Source: Rhodopseudomonas sp. (GTDB taxonomy: Bacteria; Pseudomonadota; Alphaproteobacteria; Rhizobiales; Xanthobacteraceae). Taken from it: DNA of 64,000 nucleotides. This document shows, one piece after another, positions 2,845 through 28,480 of the stretch. Each line of letters starts with the position of its first letter. The stretch's first letter is position 1. The notes below the pieces were generated by a model. It was not told the DNA's origin and searched no databases. It was given only the letters and a program-made list of their open reading frames with translations. Location of the stretch: positions 1 through 64,000 of the forward strand of contig WGNB01000041.1 in NCBI GenBank assembly GCA_016124795.1, read 5' to 3'. A program made the translations under genes and the position numbers.

Positions 2845-4055
2845 GCGCGCCCGCGTCCGGCACCTTCGATGCGCTGCGCGGCTATAACTATCGGCTGTGG
2901 GCGGGCGGCGCTTTCGTCTCCAATATCGGTACCTGGATGCAACGCACCGCGCAGGACTGGCTGGTGCTGACCGAACTGACGCACCATAACGCCACCGCGG
3001 TCGGCATCGTCATCGGCCTGCAATTCGGCCCGCAGGTCCTGCTGCTGCCGTTCACCGGCTATGCCGCCGACCGTTTCGACCGCCGCAGACTTCTGCTCAT
3101 GACCCAATCCGCGCTGGCGCTGCTCGCCGCCGGCCTCGGCGTCCTGGTGCTCAGCGGCGCGGTGACCCTGTGGCATGTCTATGTCTTCGCCTTCCTGCTC
3201 GGCTGCGCCACCGCTTTCGACATGCCGGCGCGTCAGACTTTCGTATCCGAGCTGGTCGCCGACCGGCAACTGGCCAACGCGGTGGCGCTGAACTCGACCT
3301 CTTTCAACGCGGCGCGCATGATTGGCCCGGCAGTCGCCGGCGTCCTGATCGCATCGGTCGGCTCGGGTTGGGTATTTCCGATCAACGCCGCCTCGTTCCT
3401 GGCGACCATCGCGGCGCTGTTGTTCCTGCGCGGCGACGAATTGCACGTCCGGGCGCGCGCCGCCGGCGCCACCGGCGGCTTGACCGAAGGCTTCCGCTAC
3501 GTCGGACGGCGGCCCGACCTCCAGGCTTTGCTGCTGATGCTGCTGGTGATCGGCACCTTCGGCCTGAACTTTCCGATCTATATCGCCACCATGTCGGTGA
3601 CAGTGTTTCACGGCGGCGCCGATCAATATGGCCTGCTGTCGACGATGATGGCCACCGGGTCGGTCGCCGGCGCTTTGCTGGCGGCGCGGCGCGCCCGCGC
3701 CAGCGTCGAGATGCTGCTCACGGCGGCCGCGCTGTTCGGGCTCGGCTGCGTGCTGGCCGCGCTGGCGCCGAATGTCATTCTGTTCGGCGCCGCCCTGATC
3801 GTCATCGGCATCGCGGCACAGACCTTCACCACCTCGACCAACGCGCTGGTGCAACTGTCGACCGACGACGCGATGCGCGGCCGGGTCATGGCGATCCTGC
3901 TCGCCATTGCGCTCGGCGGTATGCCGGTCGGCGCGCCTATTGTCGGGCGCGTCGCCGATCATTTCGGCGCGCGCTGGGCGCTCGCGGTTGCCGCCTGCGC
4001 CGGCTTCGCCGCCGCCGCGATCGCCACCGCCCATCTGATGCGGCGACCACGCTGA
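2841..4055 (+). CDS. MFS transporter, EntS-like (MFS_3) exporter
   Basis: A 404-residue major facilitator with 12 predicted helices, resembling the enterobactin-exporter EntS/MFS_3 group: N-terminal FDALRGYNYRLWAGGAFVSNIGTW, then WMQRTAQDWLVL, and the loop after helix 2 with AADRFDRRRLLL. The open frame extends back to 2481, but that extension runs antiparallel in frame through the 114-residue gene upstream and looks non-coding. The chosen start is TTG at 2841, whose TG is shared with the TGA stop of the upstream gene and which places the first helix at the expected position. Likely exports a small molecule under MarR control; the substrate is unknown. Confidence 0.85.
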   Translation: MSAPASGTFDALRGYNYRLWAGGAFVSNIGTWMQRTAQDWLVLTELTHHNATAVGIVIGLQFGPQVLLLPFTGYAADRFDRRRLLLMTQSALALLAAGLGVLVLSGAVTLWHVYVFAFLLGCATAFDMPARQTFVSELVADRQLANAVALNSTSFNAARMIGPAVAGVLIASVGSGWVFPINAASFLATIAALLFLRGDELHVRARAAGATGGLTEGFRYVGRRPDLQALLLMLLVIGTFGLNFPIYIATMSVTVFHGGADQYGLLSTMMATGSVAGALLAARRARASVEMLLTAAALFGLGCVLAALAPNVILFGAALIVIGIAAQTFTTSTNALVQLSTDDAMRGRVMAILLAIALGGMPVGAPIVGRVADHFGARWALAVAACAGFAAAAIATAHLMRRPR

Positions 4056-4067
4056 CCGCTTGACTCG

Positions 4068-4099
4068 CCCCGGCCGTTGCAGGAGCTTGCCGGCCGGGG
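4068..4099 (+). other. Intergenic hairpin
   Basis: Perfect 9-bp stem (4068-4076 with 4091-4099) and 14-nt loop in the 102-bp gap between the MFS gene and the second permease. No T-run follows, so it is not a standard terminator; it may attenuate or stabilise the message. Confidence 0.45.
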
Positions 4100-4157
4100 G
4101 TACAGGGCGCTCCAGGCGTAAATCGCCGGAGCCCCTTGAATTTGGGGGAACTCGCCT

Positions 4158-5495
4158 ATGACCGCAGACGCGGTATCGCACGTCATTCTCGGTCTCAATC
4201 CGATGTGGGTATCGACCTGCATTCTGGCCGTGACTTACGCCGTCATCATGTCGGAAAAGATCAACCGCGCCATCGTCGCGCTGGTCGGCGCCGGCATCAT
4301 GATCGTGGTCGGCGTACTCGACCAGGATCAAGCGATACACGGCATCGACTGGAACACCATCGGCCTTCTGACCGGCATGATGATCCTGGTGTCGATCTCG
4401 CGACGCTCCGGCATGTTCCAATATCTCGCCATATGGTCGGCGCAAGCCGCGCGCGCCCATCCGGCCGGCATCCTGATCGTGCTGCAGATCACCACCGCCG
4501 TACTGTCGGCCTTCCTCGACAACGTCACCACGGTGCTGCTGATCGTGCCGGTCACTTTCGCGATCTGCACCACGCTAAAAGTCCCGGCCTATCCTTATCT
4601 ATTCGCGGAAATCTTCGCCTCCAACATCGGCGGCACCGCGACGCTGATCGGCGATCCGCCGAACATCCTGATCGGCTCGCAGGTCGGGCTCACCTTCAAC
4701 GACTTCGTGATCAACCTGGCTCCGATCATCATCGTGGTGATGCTGGTGCAGGCGCTGATCATCCATGTGCTGTGGGGCAAGGACCTGCGCTCGACGCCGG
4801 AATCGCAGGCCGCGGTGATGGCGATGAAGGCCAGCGAATCGATCGAGGACTGGCTGCTGCTCAAGCAGGCGCTCGTCGTGCTGACGCTGGTGATGGTCGG
4901 CTTCGTGCTGGCGCGGCACCTGCATCTGGAGCCCGCCACCATCGCGATGCTCGGCGCCGCCATCCTGATGATGCTCGACAACTGGGCGCATCATAACGAG
5001 AAGGCCGCGCACAACATCCACCAGACCTTCGGCGACGTCGAATGGATCACGATCTTCTTCTTCATCGGCCTGTTCGTGGTGGTGCATGGCGTCGACGTCG
5101 GCGGATTGCTGAACCTGCTGGCGACCAAGCTGGTCGCGGCGACCGGCGGCAACATGGCCCATGCCGGCATAGCGATCTTGTGGGCGTCGGCTTTCCTCTC
5201 GGCGATCGTCGACAATATCCCCTTCGTCGCCACCATGATCCCGCTGATCAAGAGCATGGCGCCGGCCTTCGGCGGACCGGAGCACATTCAACCGCTGTGG
5301 TGGTGCCTGTCGCTCGGCGCCTGTCTCGGCGGCAACGGCACCCTGATCGGCGCGTCCGCCAACCTGACGGTGGCCGGCATTTCGGAGCGCAACGGCGTGC
5401 CGTTCCGCTTCGTCACCTACACGCTCTATGCCGCGCCGATGATGATCGTCTCGGTGGCGATCTGTAACGTCTATATCTGGTGGCGGTACTTCTGA
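4158..5495 (+). CDS. ArsB/NhaD-superfamily permease, second copy
   Basis: Full-length 445-residue paralogue of the permease at 1-1272, with the same hallmark segments (DNVTTVLLIVPVTFAI, GGTATLIGDPPNILIGS, IVDNIPFVATMIPL, CLGGNGTLIGASAN). About 10-12 transmembrane helices are expected, arranged as two inverted halves. Start is ATG at 4158 with a GGGGGAA Shine-Dalgarno-like run at 4144-4150. Because this copy is complete, it shows how much of the first is missing. Divergence between the copies is mostly conservative, so both are probably functional. The transported ion is not determinable from sequence. A terminator follows at 5531. Confidence 0.87.
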   Translation: MTADAVSHVILGLNPMWVSTCILAVTYAVIMSEKINRAIVALVGAGIMIVVGVLDQDQAIHGIDWNTIGLLTGMMILVSISRRSGMFQYLAIWSAQAARAHPAGILIVLQITTAVLSAFLDNVTTVLLIVPVTFAICTTLKVPAYPYLFAEIFASNIGGTATLIGDPPNILIGSQVGLTFNDFVINLAPIIIVVMLVQALIIHVLWGKDLRSTPESQAAVMAMKASESIEDWLLLKQALVVLTLVMVGFVLARHLHLEPATIAMLGAAILMMLDNWAHHNEKAAHNIHQTFGDVEWITIFFFIGLFVVVHGVDVGGLLNLLATKLVAATGGNMAHAGIAILWASAFLSAIVDNIPFVATMIPLIKSMAPAFGGPEHIQPLWWCLSLGACLGGNGTLIGASANLTVAGISERNGVPFRFVTYTLYAAPMMIVSVAICNVYIWWRYF

Positions 5496-5530
5496 TCCGC
5501 CGCCCGACCGGATGGGCTGAAACACCCTGA

Positions 5531-5565
5531 ATGGCGCGTCGCCCGATCCGGCGGCGCGCCATTTT
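5531..5565 (+). terminator. Rho-independent terminator after second permease
   Basis: A 13-bp stem with one G-T pair (5531-5543 with 5550-5562), 6-nt loop and a short T-run (5562-5565). Confidence 0.75.
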
Positions 5566-5721
5566 GCCGACCGGACCCCAGGCCGCTAACCGGGCGTTTA
5601 CCATAAAGGGCTTACCTCCATTTGGCTCCGTCGCGCGCGGCCGCAACTTATGACGCGCCCCGACGTTGAGCCTTGGAGCGCCGTGGATGATCCGTGGCGC
5701 TGGCAGTCGGGTAGGCGTTCT

Positions 5722-6525
5722 ATGGCGTTTCAGGGCCCCGGATCAGTTGCCCGGTTCACCGCCGGACTTATCGTCCTCGCCGTCATCACCGTGGCCGCCG
5801 CGCCACCGGCGTCGGCCGGCTTTTTCGACACCGTCATCAACGGATTCCGCCGCGCCGTCGGCGCGCCCGATCTGCCGACACGGGGACCGCAGGCAACCGA
5901 TCCTCTCTCCAATCTCGTCAACCGCATCACCGGCGACGTACCGCAGCAGGAACTCGACCATCTGCGGCCGGACGCGCGCGGACCGGAACGGGCCTTCTGC
6001 GTGCGGACTTGCGACGGCCATTATTTCCCGGTGCAGGCCCATGCCGGGCTGAGCGCGGCCGAGAGCTGCCGCTCATTCTGCCCGGCCGCCGAAACCCGGC
6101 TTTACGGCGGCAGCAATATCGACACGGCCGTCTCGGCCGATGGCCGGCGCTATGCCGACCTGCCCGCCGCCTTCGCCTATCGCAAGGCAGTCGTCGCCGG
6201 CTGCACTTGCAACGGTCGCACCGCTTTCGGCCTGGCGCGTATCGACATCGCCCGCGATCCGACGTTGCGGCCCGGCGATATTGTCGCCACGCCGCAAGGG
6301 ATCGCGGTCTACACCATCAATAGCAACAATACCGGCGCGTTCTCACCGGTCGCCAGCTATCCCGGCCTGCCGAAGGACACCCGCGACCGGCTGGCGCAAA
6401 CCCGCATCGGCCCCATGACAACGGTCGCGGTGAGCGACGACATCACCGCATCGATCCCGGCGGCGGCGAAAAATGCTCGCGCCGAAGCGCCGCGCGCGCG
6501 GCTGAACCAGCAGTCAGTGCGCTAA
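5722..6525 (+). CDS. DUF2865 domain-containing secreted protein
   Basis: A DUF2865 protein, a cysteine-containing family typical of Hyphomicrobiales with no known function. The frame is open from 5650, but ATG at 5722 gives a clean Sec signal peptide (ARFTAGLIVLAVITVAAAPPASA-G), so it is preferred; the protein is then 267 residues. The DUF2865 core is recognised by FCVRTCDGHYFPV, ESCRSFCPAAETRLYGG, the tyrosine/proline region ADLPAAFAYR and GCTCNG. The six cysteines suggest disulfides in the periplasm. Its 3' end overlaps the 3' end of the opposite-strand oxidoreductase gene by 12 bp. Confidence 0.85.
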   Translation: MAFQGPGSVARFTAGLIVLAVITVAAAPPASAGFFDTVINGFRRAVGAPDLPTRGPQATDPLSNLVNRITGDVPQQELDHLRPDARGPERAFCVRTCDGHYFPVQAHAGLSAAESCRSFCPAAETRLYGGSNIDTAVSADGRRYADLPAAFAYRKAVVAGCTCNGRTAFGLARIDIARDPTLRPGDIVATPQGIAVYTINSNNTGAFSPVASYPGLPKDTRDRLAQTRIGPMTTVAVSDDITASIPAAAKNARAEAPRARLNQQSVR

Positions 6526-7608
6526 TCGCGCGGCGACGTCCTCGGCCAGCGACAGCGAACTGGTCAGACCGGGCGATTCAATGCCGAACATCTGCACCAG
6601 TCCCGGCACGCCATGATCCGCCGGACCGTCGATCATGAAATCGGCCTGCGGCTCGCCGGGCCCGGTCAGCTTCGGCCGGATGCCGGAGTAATCCGGCGCC
6701 AGCGCACCATCGGGCATTGCCGGCCAATACGTGCGAATACGCGCATAGAAGGCATCGGCGCGCCTGGGATCGACTTCATAATGCTCGCGCTCGATCCATT
6801 CGACATCCGGCCCGAAACGCATGCGGCCGGCCAGATCGAGCGTGACGTGCACGCCAAGCCCACCCGGCATCGGCACCGGATAGATCAGCCGCTTGAACAC
6901 CGGCTTGCCGGTGAAGGTGAAGTAATTGCCCTTGGCCAGCACCAGACGCGGCACGCGCGGCTGCGGATAATCCGGCATAGCGTGCGCCACCGTCTGCGCG
7001 CCCAGGCCGGCGCAATTGGCGATGGCATCGAAGGTCATGTCGCCGGCCTCGCTGCCGCCGAACGACACCTGCCATTGACCGTCTTTACGGACCGCGCCCG
7101 TCACCGGCGTGTTGAAGGCAATCATGCCGCCGGCGTCTTCGAGGTCACCACGCAGCGCCAGCATATAAGCATGGGCATCGACGATGCCGGTCTCGGGCGA
7201 CAACAGCGCGCCGACACAGGCGAGATCCGGCTCCATGGCGCGCGCCGCGTCGGCGGTGATCGGCGTCAGGCCTTCGACATCGTTGATCTTGCCCTGCGCC
7301 GCGATCGCCTCGATCTTGGCCAGTTCGGCGGCATCGGTGGCGACGATCAGCTTACCGCATTTGCGGTGCGGCACGCCATGCGACGCACAGAACGCATAGA
7401 GCAGCCTGCGGCCGGCGACGCAGTGGCGGCCGCGCAGGCTGCCGGTCGGATAATACATGCCGCCGTGGATGACTTCGGAGTTGCGCGCCGAGATGCCGGT
7501 ACCGATGGCGTTTTCAGCCTCGGCCACCACCACCTCATGACCGTTGCGGGCCAGCGCGCGCGCCACCGCCAGGCCGACCACGCCGGCGCCGATGACTAGA
7601 ACCTGCAT
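6514..7608 (-). CDS. FAD-dependent oxidoreductase, L-2-hydroxyglutarate oxidase-like
   Basis: A 364-residue D-amino-acid-oxidase-superfamily flavoenzyme. The N-terminus has the dinucleotide-binding motif VLVIGAGVVGLAVARALA followed by the acidic residue ending beta-2 (VVVAEAE), and then the substrate-side signature SARNSEVIHGGMYYP characteristic of LhgO/L2HGDH relatives, which oxidise L-2-hydroxyglutarate to 2-oxoglutarate. The C-terminal FAD-contact region reads MFGIESPGLTSSLSLAEDVA. It is a single gene, convergent with the DUF2865 gene. The substrate is inferred from similarity; other 2-hydroxy or amino acids remain possible. Confidence 0.83.
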   Translation of the reverse strand: MQVLVIGAGVVGLAVARALARNGHEVVVAEAENAIGTGISARNSEVIHGGMYYPTGSLRGRHCVAGRRLLYAFCASHGVPHRKCGKLIVATDAAELAKIEAIAAQGKINDVEGLTPITADAARAMEPDLACVGALLSPETGIVDAHAYMLALRGDLEDAGGMIAFNTPVTGAVRKDGQWQVSFGGSEAGDMTFDAIANCAGLGAQTVAHAMPDYPQPRVPRLVLAKGNYFTFTGKPVFKRLIYPVPMPGGLGVHVTLDLAGRMRFGPDVEWIEREHYEVDPRRADAFYARIRTYWPAMPDGALAPDYSGIRPKLTGPGEPQADFMIDGPADHGVPGLVQMFGIESPGLTSSLSLAEDVAARLAH

Positions 7609-23746: not shown

Positions 23747-23948
23747 GCCACGCGACTTATTGCACTGCACGCGCAACGTTGAATTCAGCATCGCAAGCTG
23801 ACCACCGCGCCGTTGCGCATCCGTATTACATGATCATTACCGGCTGCGACCGATAAGCGCATATCGGCCAATCATATCGGTCTGTACCGGCACAAAATCG
23901 ACTCCGTTAGCGTTAGCCCTCGGGGGTGCGAACGCGAAGGAGGACGCC

Positions 23949-25367
23949 TTGAAGAAGGCCGAACCTAATCTCGTCACCGACGAGAAAACGCAGCGCATGA
24001 TCGATGGCATGATCGCCACCGAACAACGGCATATGGCCGAGCGCGCTGCCCAAACCAAAGCTGCCGAAGCCGATTGCGACTGCAAGGAGGGGATGTTCCC
24101 CTCGATCACCAACCGCCGCGGCTTTTTGTTTGCCGCCGGTTCCACCGCCATCGCTGCCGCAGCGGCCAGCGGCGGCGCTATCGCCCAGGACAAATCGGCA
24201 TCGCAGGCGCCAGCCGGCGCCCGGCATTTCGACGTCCCGGCCGATCCCACCAAGGTTCAGGGCGAGGCGATTGGCGTGAACGGCGGCTACGGATTGCGCT
24301 CGCAGTTCGAAAGCGAAACGCGGGTGCTCTATCCCAACCCGACCGACTACACCTCGTGGAGCCTGACGCCGCTCGACAAGATGCTCGGTAACCTCACCGC
24401 TTCCGGCCTGCATTTCGTGCGCGATCATAACGGCACGCCGACCATCGATCCGGCCAAGCACATGCTCTACGTCCACGGCATGGTCGACAAGCCGCTCAAG
24501 TTGACGATGGCCGACATCAAGCGCTTTCCCTCGGTGACACGCCGGCATTTCATCGAATGCTCGGGCAATACGCTGACGGAGTGGACCAAGCCGACGATGA
24601 AGACCGTGCAGGGCACGCATGGACTGCTCAGCACGTCGGAATGGACCGGCGTTTTGTTCTCGACGATCGCCCGCGAAGTCGGCCTGAAAGAAGGCAGCGC
24701 CTGGGTTCTCGCCGAAGGCGCCGACAGCGCGGTCATGACCCGCAGCATTCCGATGGAGAAGATGCTGTCGGACGCGATGCTGGCCTACGGCCAGAACGGC
24801 GAAGCGATCCGGCCGGAGCAAGGCTATCCGCTGCGCCTGCTGCTGCCGGGATACGAAGGCAACACCCAGATCAAATGGCTGCGTCGGCTCGAAGTCAGCG
24901 ACAAGCCGTTCATGACCCGCGAGGAGACATCGAAGTACACCGACCTGTTGCCCAATGGCAAAGCCCGGCAGTTCACGCTCACCATGGACGCCAAGTCGGT
25001 CATCACCTTCCCGTCCGGCGACATGAAACTGCCCGGCCCCGGCTTCTACAACGTCACGGGCTTTGCCTGGTCGGGCCATGGCCGCATCCAGTCGGTCGAC
25101 GTTTCAACCGATGGCGGCAAGACCTGGTATCCGGCCCGCATCGACTCCACGCCCGAGCCGATGTGCACCGTCCGCTTCAGCTATCCCTGGATGTGGGACG
25201 GCAAGAACGCGGTGCTGCAAAGCCGGTGCACCGACGAGACCGGCTATATCCAGCCGACCTTGCATCAACTCGTCGCCCTGCGCGGGGCCAATTCGACCTA
25301 TCACCTCAACGCGATTCAAAGCTGGGGCATCGCCAACGACGGGAGCGTCACCAATGTCCAGGTCTAA
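23949..25367 (+). CDS. soxC: SoxC-type sulfane/sulfite dehydrogenase molybdopterin subunit
   Basis: A 472-residue sulfite-oxidase-family molybdoenzyme. A Tat signal (NRRGFLFAAG, residues about 56-80) sits behind an unusually long N-terminal piece rich in Glu, Lys and His. The molybdenum-ligating Cys204 lies in FIECSGNTLTEW, with the SoxC-type downstream segment GTHGLLSTSEWTGV. The C-terminal dimerisation domain includes YNVTGFAWSGHGRIQSVDVS. Start is TTG 23949, chosen because AGGAGG at 23938-23943 is well placed. Forms a periplasmic complex with the SoxD cytochrome whose gene overlaps its 3' end. No other sox genes are in the window, so it may act as a sulfite dehydrogenase. Confidence 0.9.
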   Translation: MKKAEPNLVTDEKTQRMIDGMIATEQRHMAERAAQTKAAEADCDCKEGMFPSITNRRGFLFAAGSTAIAAAAASGGAIAQDKSASQAPAGARHFDVPADPTKVQGEAIGVNGGYGLRSQFESETRVLYPNPTDYTSWSLTPLDKMLGNLTASGLHFVRDHNGTPTIDPAKHMLYVHGMVDKPLKLTMADIKRFPSVTRRHFIECSGNTLTEWTKPTMKTVQGTHGLLSTSEWTGVLFSTIAREVGLKEGSAWVLAEGADSAVMTRSIPMEKMLSDAMLAYGQNGEAIRPEQGYPLRLLLPGYEGNTQIKWLRRLEVSDKPFMTREETSKYTDLLPNGKARQFTLTMDAKSVITFPSGDMKLPGPGFYNVTGFAWSGHGRIQSVDVSTDGGKTWYPARIDSTPEPMCTVRFSYPWMWDGKNAVLQSRCTDETGYIQPTLHQLVALRGANSTYHLNAIQSWGIANDGSVTNVQV

Positions 25368-25983
25368 AACAGAACTAACGAACCTGCCCTCCTCGATCCT
25401 TGGCCGCTATGTCGCCGGCATTGCCGCTGCCGCGATCGCGATGCCGCTGGCGATCGCCACGCTGACGCTCCCCTCGGCTGCATCGGCCGAGGTGCCAACG
25501 CATTACGGCTTCGGATCGCCCGCCACGCCGGCGGAGTTGGCGAAGTTCTTCGCCATTCCGCCGTCGGGCAAAGGCTTGCCGCCGGGCAAGGGCACGGCGG
25601 CAAAGGGCGCCGAGGTCTATGCCAATAACTGCTCGGCCTGCCACGGCGATCATCTCCAGGGCATTTCGACCAAGGGCCTCGGCGGTCCGCAATTGATTGG
25701 TGGGCGCGGAACATTGGCGAGCGCGCATCCGGTCAAAACGGTCGAGAGCTACTGGCCCTATGCCACAACGCTGTTCGACTATGTCAAACGGGCGATGCCG
25801 TTCAACGCGCCCGGCTCGCTGACCGACGACGAGGTTTATGACGTCGTCGCTTACGTGCTTTCACAGTCGAAGATCATCAAGCCGACCGACGTGATGAATG
25901 CCCAGAGCCTGCCGAAGGTAGCGATGCCGAACAAGGACGGCTTCGAACCCGATCCACGGCCAGAACTGGGACTTTATCGCTAG
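25354..25983 (+). CDS. soxD: SoxD-type c-type cytochrome, single heme
   Basis: A 209-residue exported cytochrome c. It has a signal peptide (VAGIAAAAIAMPLAIATLTLPSAASA) and one heme site C93-SA-C96-H97 in the context NNCSACHGDHLQG, with a probable axial Met in KRAMPFNAPGSL. Start is ATG 25354, overlapping the soxC end by 14 bp; a longer open frame from 25063 is only a shadow of soxC. Classical SoxD (Paracoccus) has two hemes and about 380 residues, so this is the short monoheme type, closer in size to SorB. It passes electrons from the SoxC molybdenum centre to the respiratory chain. Confidence 0.88.
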   Translation: MSRSKTELTNLPSSILGRYVAGIAAAAIAMPLAIATLTLPSAASAEVPTHYGFGSPATPAELAKFFAIPPSGKGLPPGKGTAAKGAEVYANNCSACHGDHLQGISTKGLGGPQLIGGRGTLASAHPVKTVESYWPYATTLFDYVKRAMPFNAPGSLTDDEVYDVVAYVLSQSKIIKPTDVMNAQSLPKVAMPNKDGFEPDPRPELGLYR

Positions 25984-26018
25984 GCGCATCAATCGACGCA
26001 TTATCGTCAAAGGCTGAC

Positions 26019-26059
26019 CGGCCCCGCGCAAGACTCAAATGTCATGCGCGGGGCCGTTT
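26019..26059 (+). terminator. Probable terminator after soxCD
   Basis: Perfect 12-bp stem (26019-26030 with 26045-26056), 14-nt loop and TTT then GCTTTG. It separates soxCD from the following three-gene operon. Confidence 0.65.
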
Positions 26060-26194
26060 GCTTTGTCACCAAAGCCAGCCCGACGTTGGCACGCGACGAC
26101 AAAGGATATGCAGCGGATATTCGTTGTTTGCTTGCGCCGCCCCAGCATGTACCCTTCCGGTTGTCGAAGACTGCGCCGGGGGGCCTGCAGCGGA

Positions 26195-27016
26195 ATGTCG
26201 AACCGGCAAGTCGGTGAAATCGCGCATCACATGGAAGCCTTGCTGCCGGCCGATGGCACGCCGGTGCTCAACCGCGTGATGCGGATGATGCTGTGCCGCG
26301 ACCTCAAGCGCGACATCGATCAAGACAGCTTCTTTGCCGCCCGCGATCTGCTACTCAAGGAAGGCCGCATCGGCCGCCTGCGCGGCCAGGGTGGGCAACT
26401 GTTTCTGCTGCCGCCCGTCACCAAGGCCGCCACGCCGGTCGAGATCGAGGACCGGGCGCGCCTTGTCCGGCAATGGCCGGAGGCGATGCTGATGCTGCCG
26501 CTGCGGCGCTATCTCGAATCGCAATTCCAGAAAGGTTTGGACCTGCCGCCCGACGCCGCCTGCGTCGTCGTGGACACCTCGACCATGGGCTCCGGCCTCG
26601 GCCGCTGGGCGCGACCCGATTTCATCCTGGTCAGCGCCATGCGTTTCAAAGTCATGCCGGGGTCGCAAATCGAGGTGCATAGTTTCGAACTGAAAACCGA
26701 GGACGGCGCCAATGACACGGCGGTCTACGAGGCTTTGGCGCAGACGCGATTTACCCATTTCGGTCATCTCGTCTGGCACCTGCCGAGAGGCTCGAAGGCG
26801 GAAAACCGGCTGGCCGATATCGAAATGCAATGCGAGGAACACGGCGTGGGCCTGATCCGGATGACCGATCCCGACGATACCGAAGCCTGCGAGATCATGG
26901 TCGACCCCAAACGCAAGCAGACCTCGGCGGTGACCGTCGACGGCTTTCTGGAATCGCGACTGTCCGAAAGCCAGCGCAAGACGCTGCTGCACGCGATGAA
27001 CGGAGCGGCGCGATGA
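26195..27016 (+). CDS. Predicted winged-helix plus PD-(D/E)XK nuclease-like protein
   Basis: A 273-residue protein I do not recognise as a named family. Residues 1-75 look like a winged helix: helices in [13 protein letters not shown] and [15 protein letters not shown], a recognition-like helix [16 protein letters not shown] and a wing [13 protein letters not shown]. Residues 100-225 show the order expected of a PD-(D/E)XK nuclease core: Glu108 in a helix, Pro141-Asp142 in [11 protein letters not shown], Glu165-Leu-Lys167 in [12 protein letters not shown], a helix [13 protein letters not shown] and a strand HLVWHLP. Start is ATG 26195 (the open frame from 26039 overlaps the soxCD terminator). 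It overlaps the ParA-like gene by ATGA. Function inferred from motifs only. Confidence 0.6.
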
Positions 27017-27912
27017 AAGGCAAAGTCATCGCCGTCGCCAACATGAAAGGCGGCGTCGGCAAGACCGCCACCGTCATCGGGCTCGCCGAAGCGCTGGCGG
27101 CCGAAGGTTCGGAAGTGCTGGTGATCGATCTCGATCCGCAGGCCAATGCCTCGATCTGCCTGGCCGGCAGCAAGATGCTCAAGGAGCTGATCGAGAACGG
27201 CCACACCGTCGACGGCTATCTGACCGACCGGCTGTTCCGCAAGAAGGACGATATCGAGTTCGCCGATTGCATCCGCACCCACGTCAGCAATGTCTATCAC
27301 CTCAACGCCCAACTGCCGATTTCGCTTTTGGCGTCAAGTTCGGAACTGCGCATCGTCGAGCGCGACATGCTGTATCGCCTGAGCAAGAGCCACACCGACA
27401 TCGACTGGTTCGTCGACCGTCTGCACGACCTGTTGCGCGACCAGTTGAAACGGACCCGCAAGAGCTACGACTACATCCTGTTCGATTGCGCGCCCGGCAT
27501 TTCGCTGCTGACGGAAATGAGCATCCGGCTGGCCAATCTGGTGATCGTGCCGACGATTCCGGATTTTCTGTCGACCTACGGCCTGCAAACCTTTTGCAGC
27601 AATCTGCGCACCGGCGAGATGGCCAAGCGCACCACGCTGGAAAAGCCGAAGAAGCCTTATGTGCTGGTGACGCGGCTGCGTCCGATCAACGAGCACAGAC
27701 ACACCGTCGAACGGCTCGAAAACGAACACCTCAAGGACAAGCCGAACTTCCGCTTGTTCGAAACGCAAATTCCCGAGCGCGCGGCGATCGCCGAGGCGCT
27801 TGGCAAAGTCGATAGCTGGCCGTCGTTTTCGCAGAAATGGAAAGACACGGCGGGAATTCTGGAAAGCCTGTCCAACGAAACCAGGGAGGCGCTGCATGGC
27901 GCTCGATCTTGA
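27013..27912 (+). CDS. ParA/Soj-family ATPase
   Basis: A 299-residue ATPase of the ParA/MinD (SIMIBI) class. The deviant Walker A is [12 protein letters not shown] (residues 10-21), Walker A' is [11 protein letters not shown] (residues 37-47), and Walker B is [11 protein letters not shown] (residues 152-162). These proteins dimerise on ATP binding and usually bind DNA or membrane non-specifically. There is no ParB or parS near it and no rep gene, so a chromosome- or plasmid-partition role is not supported by context. It overlaps the nuclease-like gene by 4 bp and the next gene by 17 bp, so it works in that three-gene unit. Confidence 0.85.
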
Positions 27913-28360
27913 TGCTTTCGCGGTGCTGCGCGCCATCGGCGCGCATGCCGCGCTGTTCGGCGACGCCAAAGCGGACGCCGCCAAGGCTGCCCGCGCGCTG
28001 GTCGTCAAACAGATCAAGGCCAAGGGCACCGATCTCGCCGCGCTGCGGGCGCTGCGCAAAGCGCTCGGCGAGGAAAGCTTCGCGCTGGTGGTCGACGGCC
28101 TGAAGGACGCCGAACTGAAGACGCTGGTCGCTCGCGTCGACAAGGAAAACCCGGAGGCCAAGACCGCCAGCCCGGCCTGGCGCCGCCGTCACCTGATGGC
28201 CCTGGTCACCGGCGCCGCCGAACCGGCTGCGAAAGCGCCCAAGGCCGCCAAGGCGAAAAAGCCGGCCAGGGCCAAAAACGGGGCCAAAGCCGGCAAAACA
28301 GCCGAAAATGGGCCGGAATTCCTCTACGACGAGTCGGCCGGGGTGCTGCGCAAGCGCTAA
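27896..28360 (+). CDS. Small protein with helical domain and Lys/Ala-rich tail, third gene of ParA-like operon
   Basis: A 154-residue protein with no recognised family. Residues 1-100 are predicted mostly helical ([70 protein letters not shown]). Residues about 103-135 are a Lys/Ala-rich, histone-H1-like tail ([19 protein letters not shown] and on), ending in a separate short motif [14 protein letters not shown]. The tail suggests nucleic-acid contact. Start is ATG 27896, 17 bp inside the ParA-like gene. Its position suggests it is the DNA- or target-binding partner of the ATPase, which is inference. Confidence 0.65.
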
Positions 28361-28375
28361 CGGCGCGATAACTAC

Positions 28376-28391
28376 ATAAAGAAATCTTTAT
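28376..28391. promoter_or_regulatory. Palindromic operator upstream of ahcY
   Basis: ATAAAGA (28376-28382), two bases, TCTTTAT (28385-28391): a near-perfect AT-rich palindrome in GC-rich surroundings, 90 bp before the ahcY ATG. Its size and AT-rich symmetry suit an ArsR-family site, and ahcY in proteobacteria is often controlled by the ArsR-type S-adenosylhomocysteine sensor SahR. Assignment to SahR is a hypothesis; the sahR gene is not in the window. Confidence 0.5.
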
Positions 28392-28480
28392 ATATGCGTT
28401 GCGGGGCGGCGGCGGGCCTGTTATAGGCTCGGCGACAATCCACCCTGCCAAATTTTCACGCTTGTTCGCATAGGACCGCC

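Follow-up and report, generated by a model that had tools for sequence, protein, structure and literature searches.

A candidate chromosomal pair of a ParA-type ATPase and its own small partner, with an optional winged-helix protein of predicted PD-(D/E)XK fold, in Rhodopseudomonas sp.

Introduction

The roles established for ParA ATPases are movement and spacing, not nuclease control, and the small partners of Soj, ParF and McdA carry a basic disordered region. In MksBEFG/Wadjet, an SMC complex is combined with a Toprim nuclease, whereas the locus analyzed here combines a ParA-type ATPase with a protein of predicted PD-(D/E)XK fold. This locus consists of three genes (P1-P2-P3, all on the + strand, 26195-28360) in a 64,000-nucleotide stretch of Rhodopseudomonas sp. 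DNA (positions 1 to 64,000 of the forward strand of contig WGNB01000041.1, GenBank assembly GCA_016124795.1; hereafter, the window), and comparison with related genomes suggests that the ATPase P2 and the small basic-tailed protein P3 form a recurrent core pair, for which the putative nuclease P1 is an optional, often-lost companion.

Each of the closest described systems is similar to this locus in one respect and different in others. The nuclease domain of P1 shares the predicted core topology and the catalytic residue pattern of PD-(D/E)XK restriction endonucleases (PaqCI; AspBHI, MspJI; FokI), but no sequence relationship to any of these was found, P1 differs from them by its winged helix at the N-terminus and by its ParA partner, and in none of the loci read does a methyltransferase adjoin P1. 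Mod/Res pairs of the type III-like kind (e.g., that of locus L131) have a Mod protein with an N-terminal winged helix homologous to that of P1, which, however, is without a methyltransferase or helicase domain. With Soj-Spo0J, ParF-ParG and McdA-McdB the locus has in common a deviant Walker A ATPase and a co-encoded small partner with a basic disordered region, although P3 matches none of the adaptor families in the libraries used, and some lineages have a DNase-like gene 5' of the pair. With MksBEFG/Wadjet it has in common the idea of a DNA-handling ATPase with a nuclease, MksG (PMC10123090). No description of a ParA plus PD-(D/E)XK pair was recognized in the titles and abstract openings of the open-access papers listed by searches for which no family names were available as queries; one report notes, for a region of Corynebacterium, a PD-(D/E)xK nuclease with a ParA ATPase nearby and, for an island of Propionibacterium, ParA genes, not linked there as a system (PMC5379612). 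The folds of P1 and P2 are already known; the libraries and literature covered contained neither their pairing nor the families of P1 and P3, nor the pattern of core and optional components.

Results and Discussion

Recurrence of the three genes

P1 (26195..27016, 273 aa), P2 (27013..27912, 299 aa) and P3 (27896..28360, 154 aa) overlap by 4 bp (P1/P2, ATGA) and 17 bp (P2/P3); upon re-reading of the sequence, the coordinates, start codons, lengths and overlaps given in an earlier note on this DNA proved exact. P1 has a single match in the entire 5.14 Mb host genome, where the window is on contig 22. A search of the family with P1 matched nine of 119 genomes, host included, six of them at full length (the window plus five further genomes, the latter at 56-63% identity), and all five of these also hold P2 and P3; of the remaining three matches, one covers just the nuclease region (23%), and the other two are winged helices that start Mod-like frames. 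A scan of named genomes with P1, which detects close relatives only, yielded 16 loci (15 labelled Hyphomicrobiales, one Rhodobacteraceae), with the order P1-P2-P3 in 15, overlapping P1-P2 in 12 and overlapping P2-P3 in 15; the exception, L110, lacks P3, and its P1 and P2 frames are incomplete. These counts overlap with those for our genome sets, since four of the loci (L097, L101, L102 and L104) appear to come from the same organisms as genomes G037, G001, G048 and G325.

At the level of the order, a P1 profile matched ten of 397 genomes, host included. Distant relatives of P1 precede a ParA in L115-L118, L122 and L123 (L115 runs off its contig), and L114/L124 has no adjacent ParA. A small third gene, in which Pfam finds nothing and which we tentatively regard as SAP-like, follows the ParA in L126, L128 and L130; the P1-P2-small protein set of L126 (2085-8789) lies just 3' of genes that by eye resemble phage tail genes. 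The co-occurrence anticipated by the earlier note is thereby borne out, in the same order in other genera. The recurrence of this order across genera, the invariance of D142, E165 and K167 of P1 (see below) and a ratio of nonsynonymous to synonymous substitution rates (dN/dS) below 0.45 for P1, P2 and P3 in every pair tested (0.09-0.42 for P1, four pairs) argue that the module is more than a chance arrangement.

P2-P3 as a core pair and P1 as an optional component

Searches that start from P2 or P3 give a different picture of the unit from those that start from P1. A P2 family profile (threshold E <= 1e-40) matched 16 of the 119 family genomes, namely, the window and five others with P1, nine (L183-L191) that hold P2-P3 with no adjacent P1, and G061 (L193), with a more distant ParA and a small SAP-like gene and no P1. 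The L193 set (3173-7583) adjoins genes that by eye look like those for an integrase and a resolvase. No remnant of P1 was detected beside P2 in the nine P1-less family loci (the best match, in L188, is weak, with E 1.8e-4, and 4 kb off), nor did a P1 profile match elsewhere in these nine genomes, in a search without a positive control, though a related profile found P1 in other genomes.

A P3 profile matched eight of 397 genomes of the order, with P2 adjacent in all eight and P1 in three. Within the Methylobacterium-like genus of G331, 49 of 111 genomes hold P3, and P2 accompanies it in 49 of 49 loci (adjacent in each of the 47 read in the genus-wide search, plus two others); P1 is present in three and absent in 45 of the 48 judgeable loci (L266 ends inside P2, so that P1 presence is not judgeable there, and in L277 no more than 555 bp lie 5' of the pair). 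Loci with and without P1 occur at similar chromosomal places: on the recJ side, P1 is present in L101-L103 and absent in L187-L190; in an AzlC/glc/ftsH region recognized by eye, it is present in L092, L100 and L105 and absent in L183 and L191; on the groEL side, it is present in L109 and absent in L202, L203 and others. On a quick P2 tree with some long branches (77 rows, 19 with P1 and 58 without, L266 among the latter), P1 presence requires ten changes, eight of them forced by starred branches. In L241, a stretch of 28 residues that matches the C-terminus of P1 (68% identity, E 5e-6) survives immediately 5' of P2, and no such remnant was found in the 43 other P1-less loci of the Methylobacterium-like genus (one in 44, L266 among the 44). 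The opposite scenario, a gain of P1 by P2-P3 loci, is not favoured because the distant sets keep the P1-P2 order and L241 holds a P1 fossil. Overall, these gene contents suggest that P2-P3 is the recurrent core and P1 an optional, often-lost component; the three-gene unit of the earlier note is real as a co-occurrence, and is better described as a P2-P3 core with a frequently lost nuclease.

A toxin-antitoxin-like arrangement, in which P1 would be a toxic DNase restrained by P2-P3, could also produce such a pattern, with loss of P1 being tolerated and loss of P2-P3 in the presence of P1 not. Consistent with it, the genes overlap, close P1 homologues (at least 50% identity) are accompanied by P2 in every locus examined and, except for the partial L110, by P3, and P1-less P2-P3 pairs are common. 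In toxin-antitoxin pairs, however, the antitoxin gene normally comes first and decays once the toxin is lost, whereas here P1 comes first, orphan P2-P3 pairs are well conserved and distant P1-like proteins stand alone, which makes this arrangement distinctly unlikely in our estimate.

Twelve P1-less pairs gave dN/dS of 0.04-0.23 for P2 and 0.04-0.34 for P3, so that P2-P3 is seemingly maintained for a reason independent of P1. One candidate reason is cargo positioning of the McdAB or ParC-ParP kind, with P2-P3 spacing a body or macromolecule on the nucleoid and P1 as an incidental or regulatory neighbour. The presence of P1-less P2-P3 in most carriers of one genus at recurring chromosomal places, the disordered charged tail of P3 with its recurring end motif and the low dN/dS of P2 (0.04-0.23) all point that way. 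Yet no cargo gene common to the different sites was recognized by eye among the neighbours (a distant cargo gene is possible), and the pairing of P1 with a ParA persists at 23-31% identity, even in relatives without the P1 winged helix (L117, L118). We consider this alternative unlikely.

Predicted structure of P1

P1 combines a winged-helix domain (residues 1-72; 26195..26410, + strand) with a PD-(D/E)XK nuclease-fold domain (residues 93-260). In an AlphaFold2 model (mean pLDDT 89.5; all structure predictions here are single-chain folds), a fold search recognized the core alpha-beta-beta-beta-alpha-beta topology of the PD-(D/E)XK superfamily. P141-D142, E165-x-K167 and Q183 were found where the earlier note had placed them, with a predicted active-site stretch at 26480..26695 (E96 at 26480-26482, D142 at 26618-26620, E165 at 26687-26689 and K167 at 26693-26695, + strand) and Q183 (26741-26743, + strand) downstream of it. 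All 12 divergent P1 proteins compared keep D142, E165 and K167, with E96 nearly invariant; in 15 of 15 closer proteins all four are invariant, and Q183 is nearly so. P1 is thus predicted to be a DNase of the PD-(D/E)XK superfamily. The nuclease call of the earlier note agrees with both the predicted fold and the conservation of D142, E165 and K167, and its domain calls hold for all three proteins (winged helix plus PD-(D/E)XK for P1, ParA ATPase for P2, a small basic-tailed protein for P3).

At E <= 0.001, neither P1 nor P3 of the window matched any family of Pfam, NCBIfam, PADLOC or PHROGs, and scans of their homologues against the family libraries gave scattered matches, limited to one or two members each (best 2.5e-4). 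P1 relatives in L117 and L118 are without the winged helix, and a domain homologous to it opens the Mod proteins of L131, L132 and L133, the match being confined to that domain; such methyltransferases belong to other genomes of the same family and order. The corresponding type III-like Mod/Res pairs with a P1-type winged helix lie at L131 3998-10106, L132 1133-7195 and L133 3974-10023 (Pfam was run on L131 only). Solo P1-like proteins are encoded at L095 6974-7900, L124 6923-7837, L134 7788-8549 and L135 7596-8414. In L285 (4776-8247), from a megaplasmid of Novosphingobium, one more solo P1-like protein is encoded opposite two genes that by eye resemble those for an SMC/RecF-like ATPase and a partner.

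The ATPase and its partner

P2 matches Pfam AAA_31 (4.6e-34; 118 bits, cut-off 27) and CbiA (3.1e-20) as well as PHROGs phrog_164 (3.8e-42). Judged by these matches and by its motifs, KGGxGK[ST] with the signature lysine (MKGGVGKT, residues 11-18, 27043..27066 on the + strand, invariant in six aligned rows) and DCAPG, it is a ParA/MinD deviant Walker A ATPase. P3 is composed of a helical domain (residues 7-105) and a disordered, low-complexity Lys/Ala-rich tail (28211..28357, + strand) that terminates in a short recurring motif. K+R exceeds D+E in this tail in 68 of 68 P3 rows (a few of them duplicates), and the C-terminal pattern, derived from those same data, is present in 46 of 63 rows.

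The closeness of P2 to ParA-type ATPases might indicate a remnant or variant partition system, with P3 in place of ParB and P1 as an accessory. Such a system is very improbable given that P3 (window protein and homologues) has no ParB match in the family libraries, and that another ParA-like match adjoins a ParB_N match on host contig 61, so that the ParA of this other pair is a protein different from P2. In addition, the repeats in 25980-28480 are short and scattered, with no clustered array resembling a centromere, no replication gene was recognized adjoining the module, and a search of the plasmid collection did not find P3.

A likely exchange affecting P2 and P3

The loci L101 and L102, which come from two metagenome assemblies of a single genus, are 94% identical across the upstream flank and P1 and 93% identical in recJ. 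Their P2 proteins are nearly identical over residues 1-54, Walker A included, with 56% identity past approximately residue 54, and their P3 proteins share 53%. The simplest reading of these identities is that most of P2, together with P3, was replaced by recombination; such joint replacement is as expected of a specificity-matched pair. Further congeners were sought, and only those two genomes were found.

Proposed function

Taken together, the gene order and overlaps, the conserved residues on a matching predicted fold, the P2-P3 pair, the repeated changes in P1 presence and the one exchange lead us to favour, tentatively and with a likelihood that we place somewhat short of even, a chromosomal ParA-type ATPase outside parABS (P2) with its own partner (P3) and a facultative sequence-binding DNase (P1). 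Mechanistically, ATP-bound P2 dimers would coat DNA as an ATP-switched DNA-binding matrix, the helical domain of P3 would hold cargo or DNA, and its basic tail and C-terminal motif would stimulate or tether P2, the C-terminal part of P2 and P3 forming a specificity-matched pair. Where present, P1 would be recruited or licensed by P2-P3, dock on DNA via its winged helix and make metal-dependent breaks. With P1, the system would be a restriction-like or DNA-surveillance device gated by ParA; without P1, it would have a positioning or DNA-handling role alone. Foreign DNA, damaged DNA and a cellular cargo are all possible targets.

Several observations weigh against this interpretation. Low-identity P1-like proteins have no recognized ParA neighbour in L095, L114/L124, L134, L135 and L285. 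The exchange concerns one metagenome pair, of which one assembly is 79% complete, and may reflect a strain-mixed contig; an all-pairs comparison within the Methylobacterium-like genus was uninformative on further exchanges because the shared flank there is the slow-evolving groEL. There is a single P1 fossil, and P1 may have been gained in some lineages. The fold search gave no recognizable relative of P3, and the persistence of P2-P3 without P1 would also fit two unrelated functions sharing one operon. DNA surveillance is plausible; the broader proposition is that the locus represents a novel class of DNA-surveillance machines on chromosomes, with a ParA ATPase and an exchangeable adaptor that would steer and gate a winged-helix PD-(D/E)XK DNase, the cutter being gained or lost while the ParA-adaptor pair persists, and this we regard as doubtful. 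If true, it would mean that ParA patterning serves to control the cutting of DNA and not its segregation. A natural experiment is offered by related strains that differ in the presence of the nuclease at similar loci, and by one pair with swapped adaptor alleles, and the module makes testable both the gating of DNA cleavage by a ParA and the role of orphan ParA pairs on bacterial chromosomes.

Mobile elements and defence context

P3 has no match in 72,556 plasmid or 50,697 phage records (the phage search with the window P3 only); P1 matches two of these plasmid records, from Paraburkholderia and Ensifer, in each case distantly and over part of its length, and none of the phage records, and its relative without the winged helix in L117 has three plasmid matches and no phage match. 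P2 against viral contigs gave generic ParA relatives at 24-33% identity (best 80 of 135). A plasmid or phage origin of the module was rejected since P3 is absent from both collections and the P1 matches are few and distant.

With respect to the system models of PADLOC-DB 2.0.0, P1 has no match, P3 reaches 0.0032 to PtuB1, and P2 matches PDC-M28B (4.5e-9) within the Walker A stretch only (residues 6-41), so that no component matches a known system. The 90 proteins encoded around 15 loci (window left out) have mostly core functions; at 1e-5 they hit 22 PADLOC models with one or two proteins each (raw counts). Leaving L107 aside, the traced matches fall on proteins that by eye appear to be DprA-, FtsH- and RecD-like. 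In L107, one of the 15 loci, a DUF5131 gene directly 5' of P1 matches the PADLOC candidates PDC-M41B (4.6e-105) and PDC-M30B (8.3e-96). This gene and another one without a Pfam or PADLOC match, which we take to be a three-Cys-motif partner, occupy L107 1853-3429, directly 5' of P1-P2-P3 and near a transposase read by eye. No Mod methyltransferase or Res helicase, as in type III restriction-modification, was recognized beside the module in the window and the named loci read.

These data bear on anti-phage or anti-plasmid defence, in which P2-P3 would sense foreign DNA and P1 degrade it. The restriction-endonuclease-like fold of P1, a winged helix common to type III-like Mod proteins, the patchy distribution (P1 in nine of 119 family genomes, six full length, host included), the frequent absence of the nuclease, the one cassette exchange and the DUF5131 gene of L107 with its PDC-M41B/PDC-M30B match are all compatible with it. 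Against it, L107 aside, no defence-gene neighbourhood was seen by eye, the traced PADLOC matches falling on the proteins named above, P3 is absent from plasmid and phage records, with P1 restricted to two distant plasmid matches, and the core is under purifying selection even without the nuclease. We consider a defence role possible but unlikely. The interpretation given in the earlier note is, overall, partly supported: its domain calls and the co-occurrence stand, whereas its three-gene unit needs the rewording given above, the suggested location on mobile elements or in defence islands finds little support (P3 off plasmids and phages, neighbours mostly core, a candidate-defence gene directly 5' of P1 in one of 15 loci, L107), and the joint entry with soxCD, considered next, is not borne out.

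The chromosomal site

The module of the window is located between ptsH and ahcY, an order proposed to be otherwise conserved. This is confirmed within the genus of the window, where 40 of 43 genomes have an ahcY match; 30 ahcY loci were examined, one of them that of the window, and 17 of these show the empty site, with ptsH at most ~0.4 kb 5' of ahcY. Genome G544 (L144) has soxCD-like genes 5' of ahcY with neither P2 nor P3 in between; L096, L097 and L106 have the order EIIA-HPr-P1-P2-P3-ahcY with no soxC or soxD match; and G542 (L154), with the same identities as L106 and apparently the same organism, has P2-P3 directly 5' of ahcY. The arrival of the module with soxCD as one segment was rejected because each occurs without the other (L144 vs. 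L154, L096, L097 and L106), and soxCD represents a separate insertion. On the P2 tree, the window clusters with L096 and L106 (99/98) and, together with L097, at 83/69. L097 (the same locus as L090) has an extra minus-strand gene before ahcY, by eye a transport binding protein.

A GC-rich inverted repeat in the soxD-P1 gap (26019..26056) is a possible terminator separating the module from soxCD; it is not listed as a terminator by a consensus scan, and the scan of the locus for promoters and terminators gave nothing exceeding shuffled sequence. The ptsH-ahcY gap appears to be a variable insertion place (window 23747-28480; L138, L142, L144 and L097), filled, depending on the genome, with soxCD, P1-P2-P3, a transporter-like gene or longer intergenic stretches. 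At its ahcY end, the palindrome ATAAAGAAATCTTTATAT (28376..28393), likely the operator of a regulator, recurs unchanged or nearly so in the relatives compared, which places the module 5' of an intact ahcY control region.
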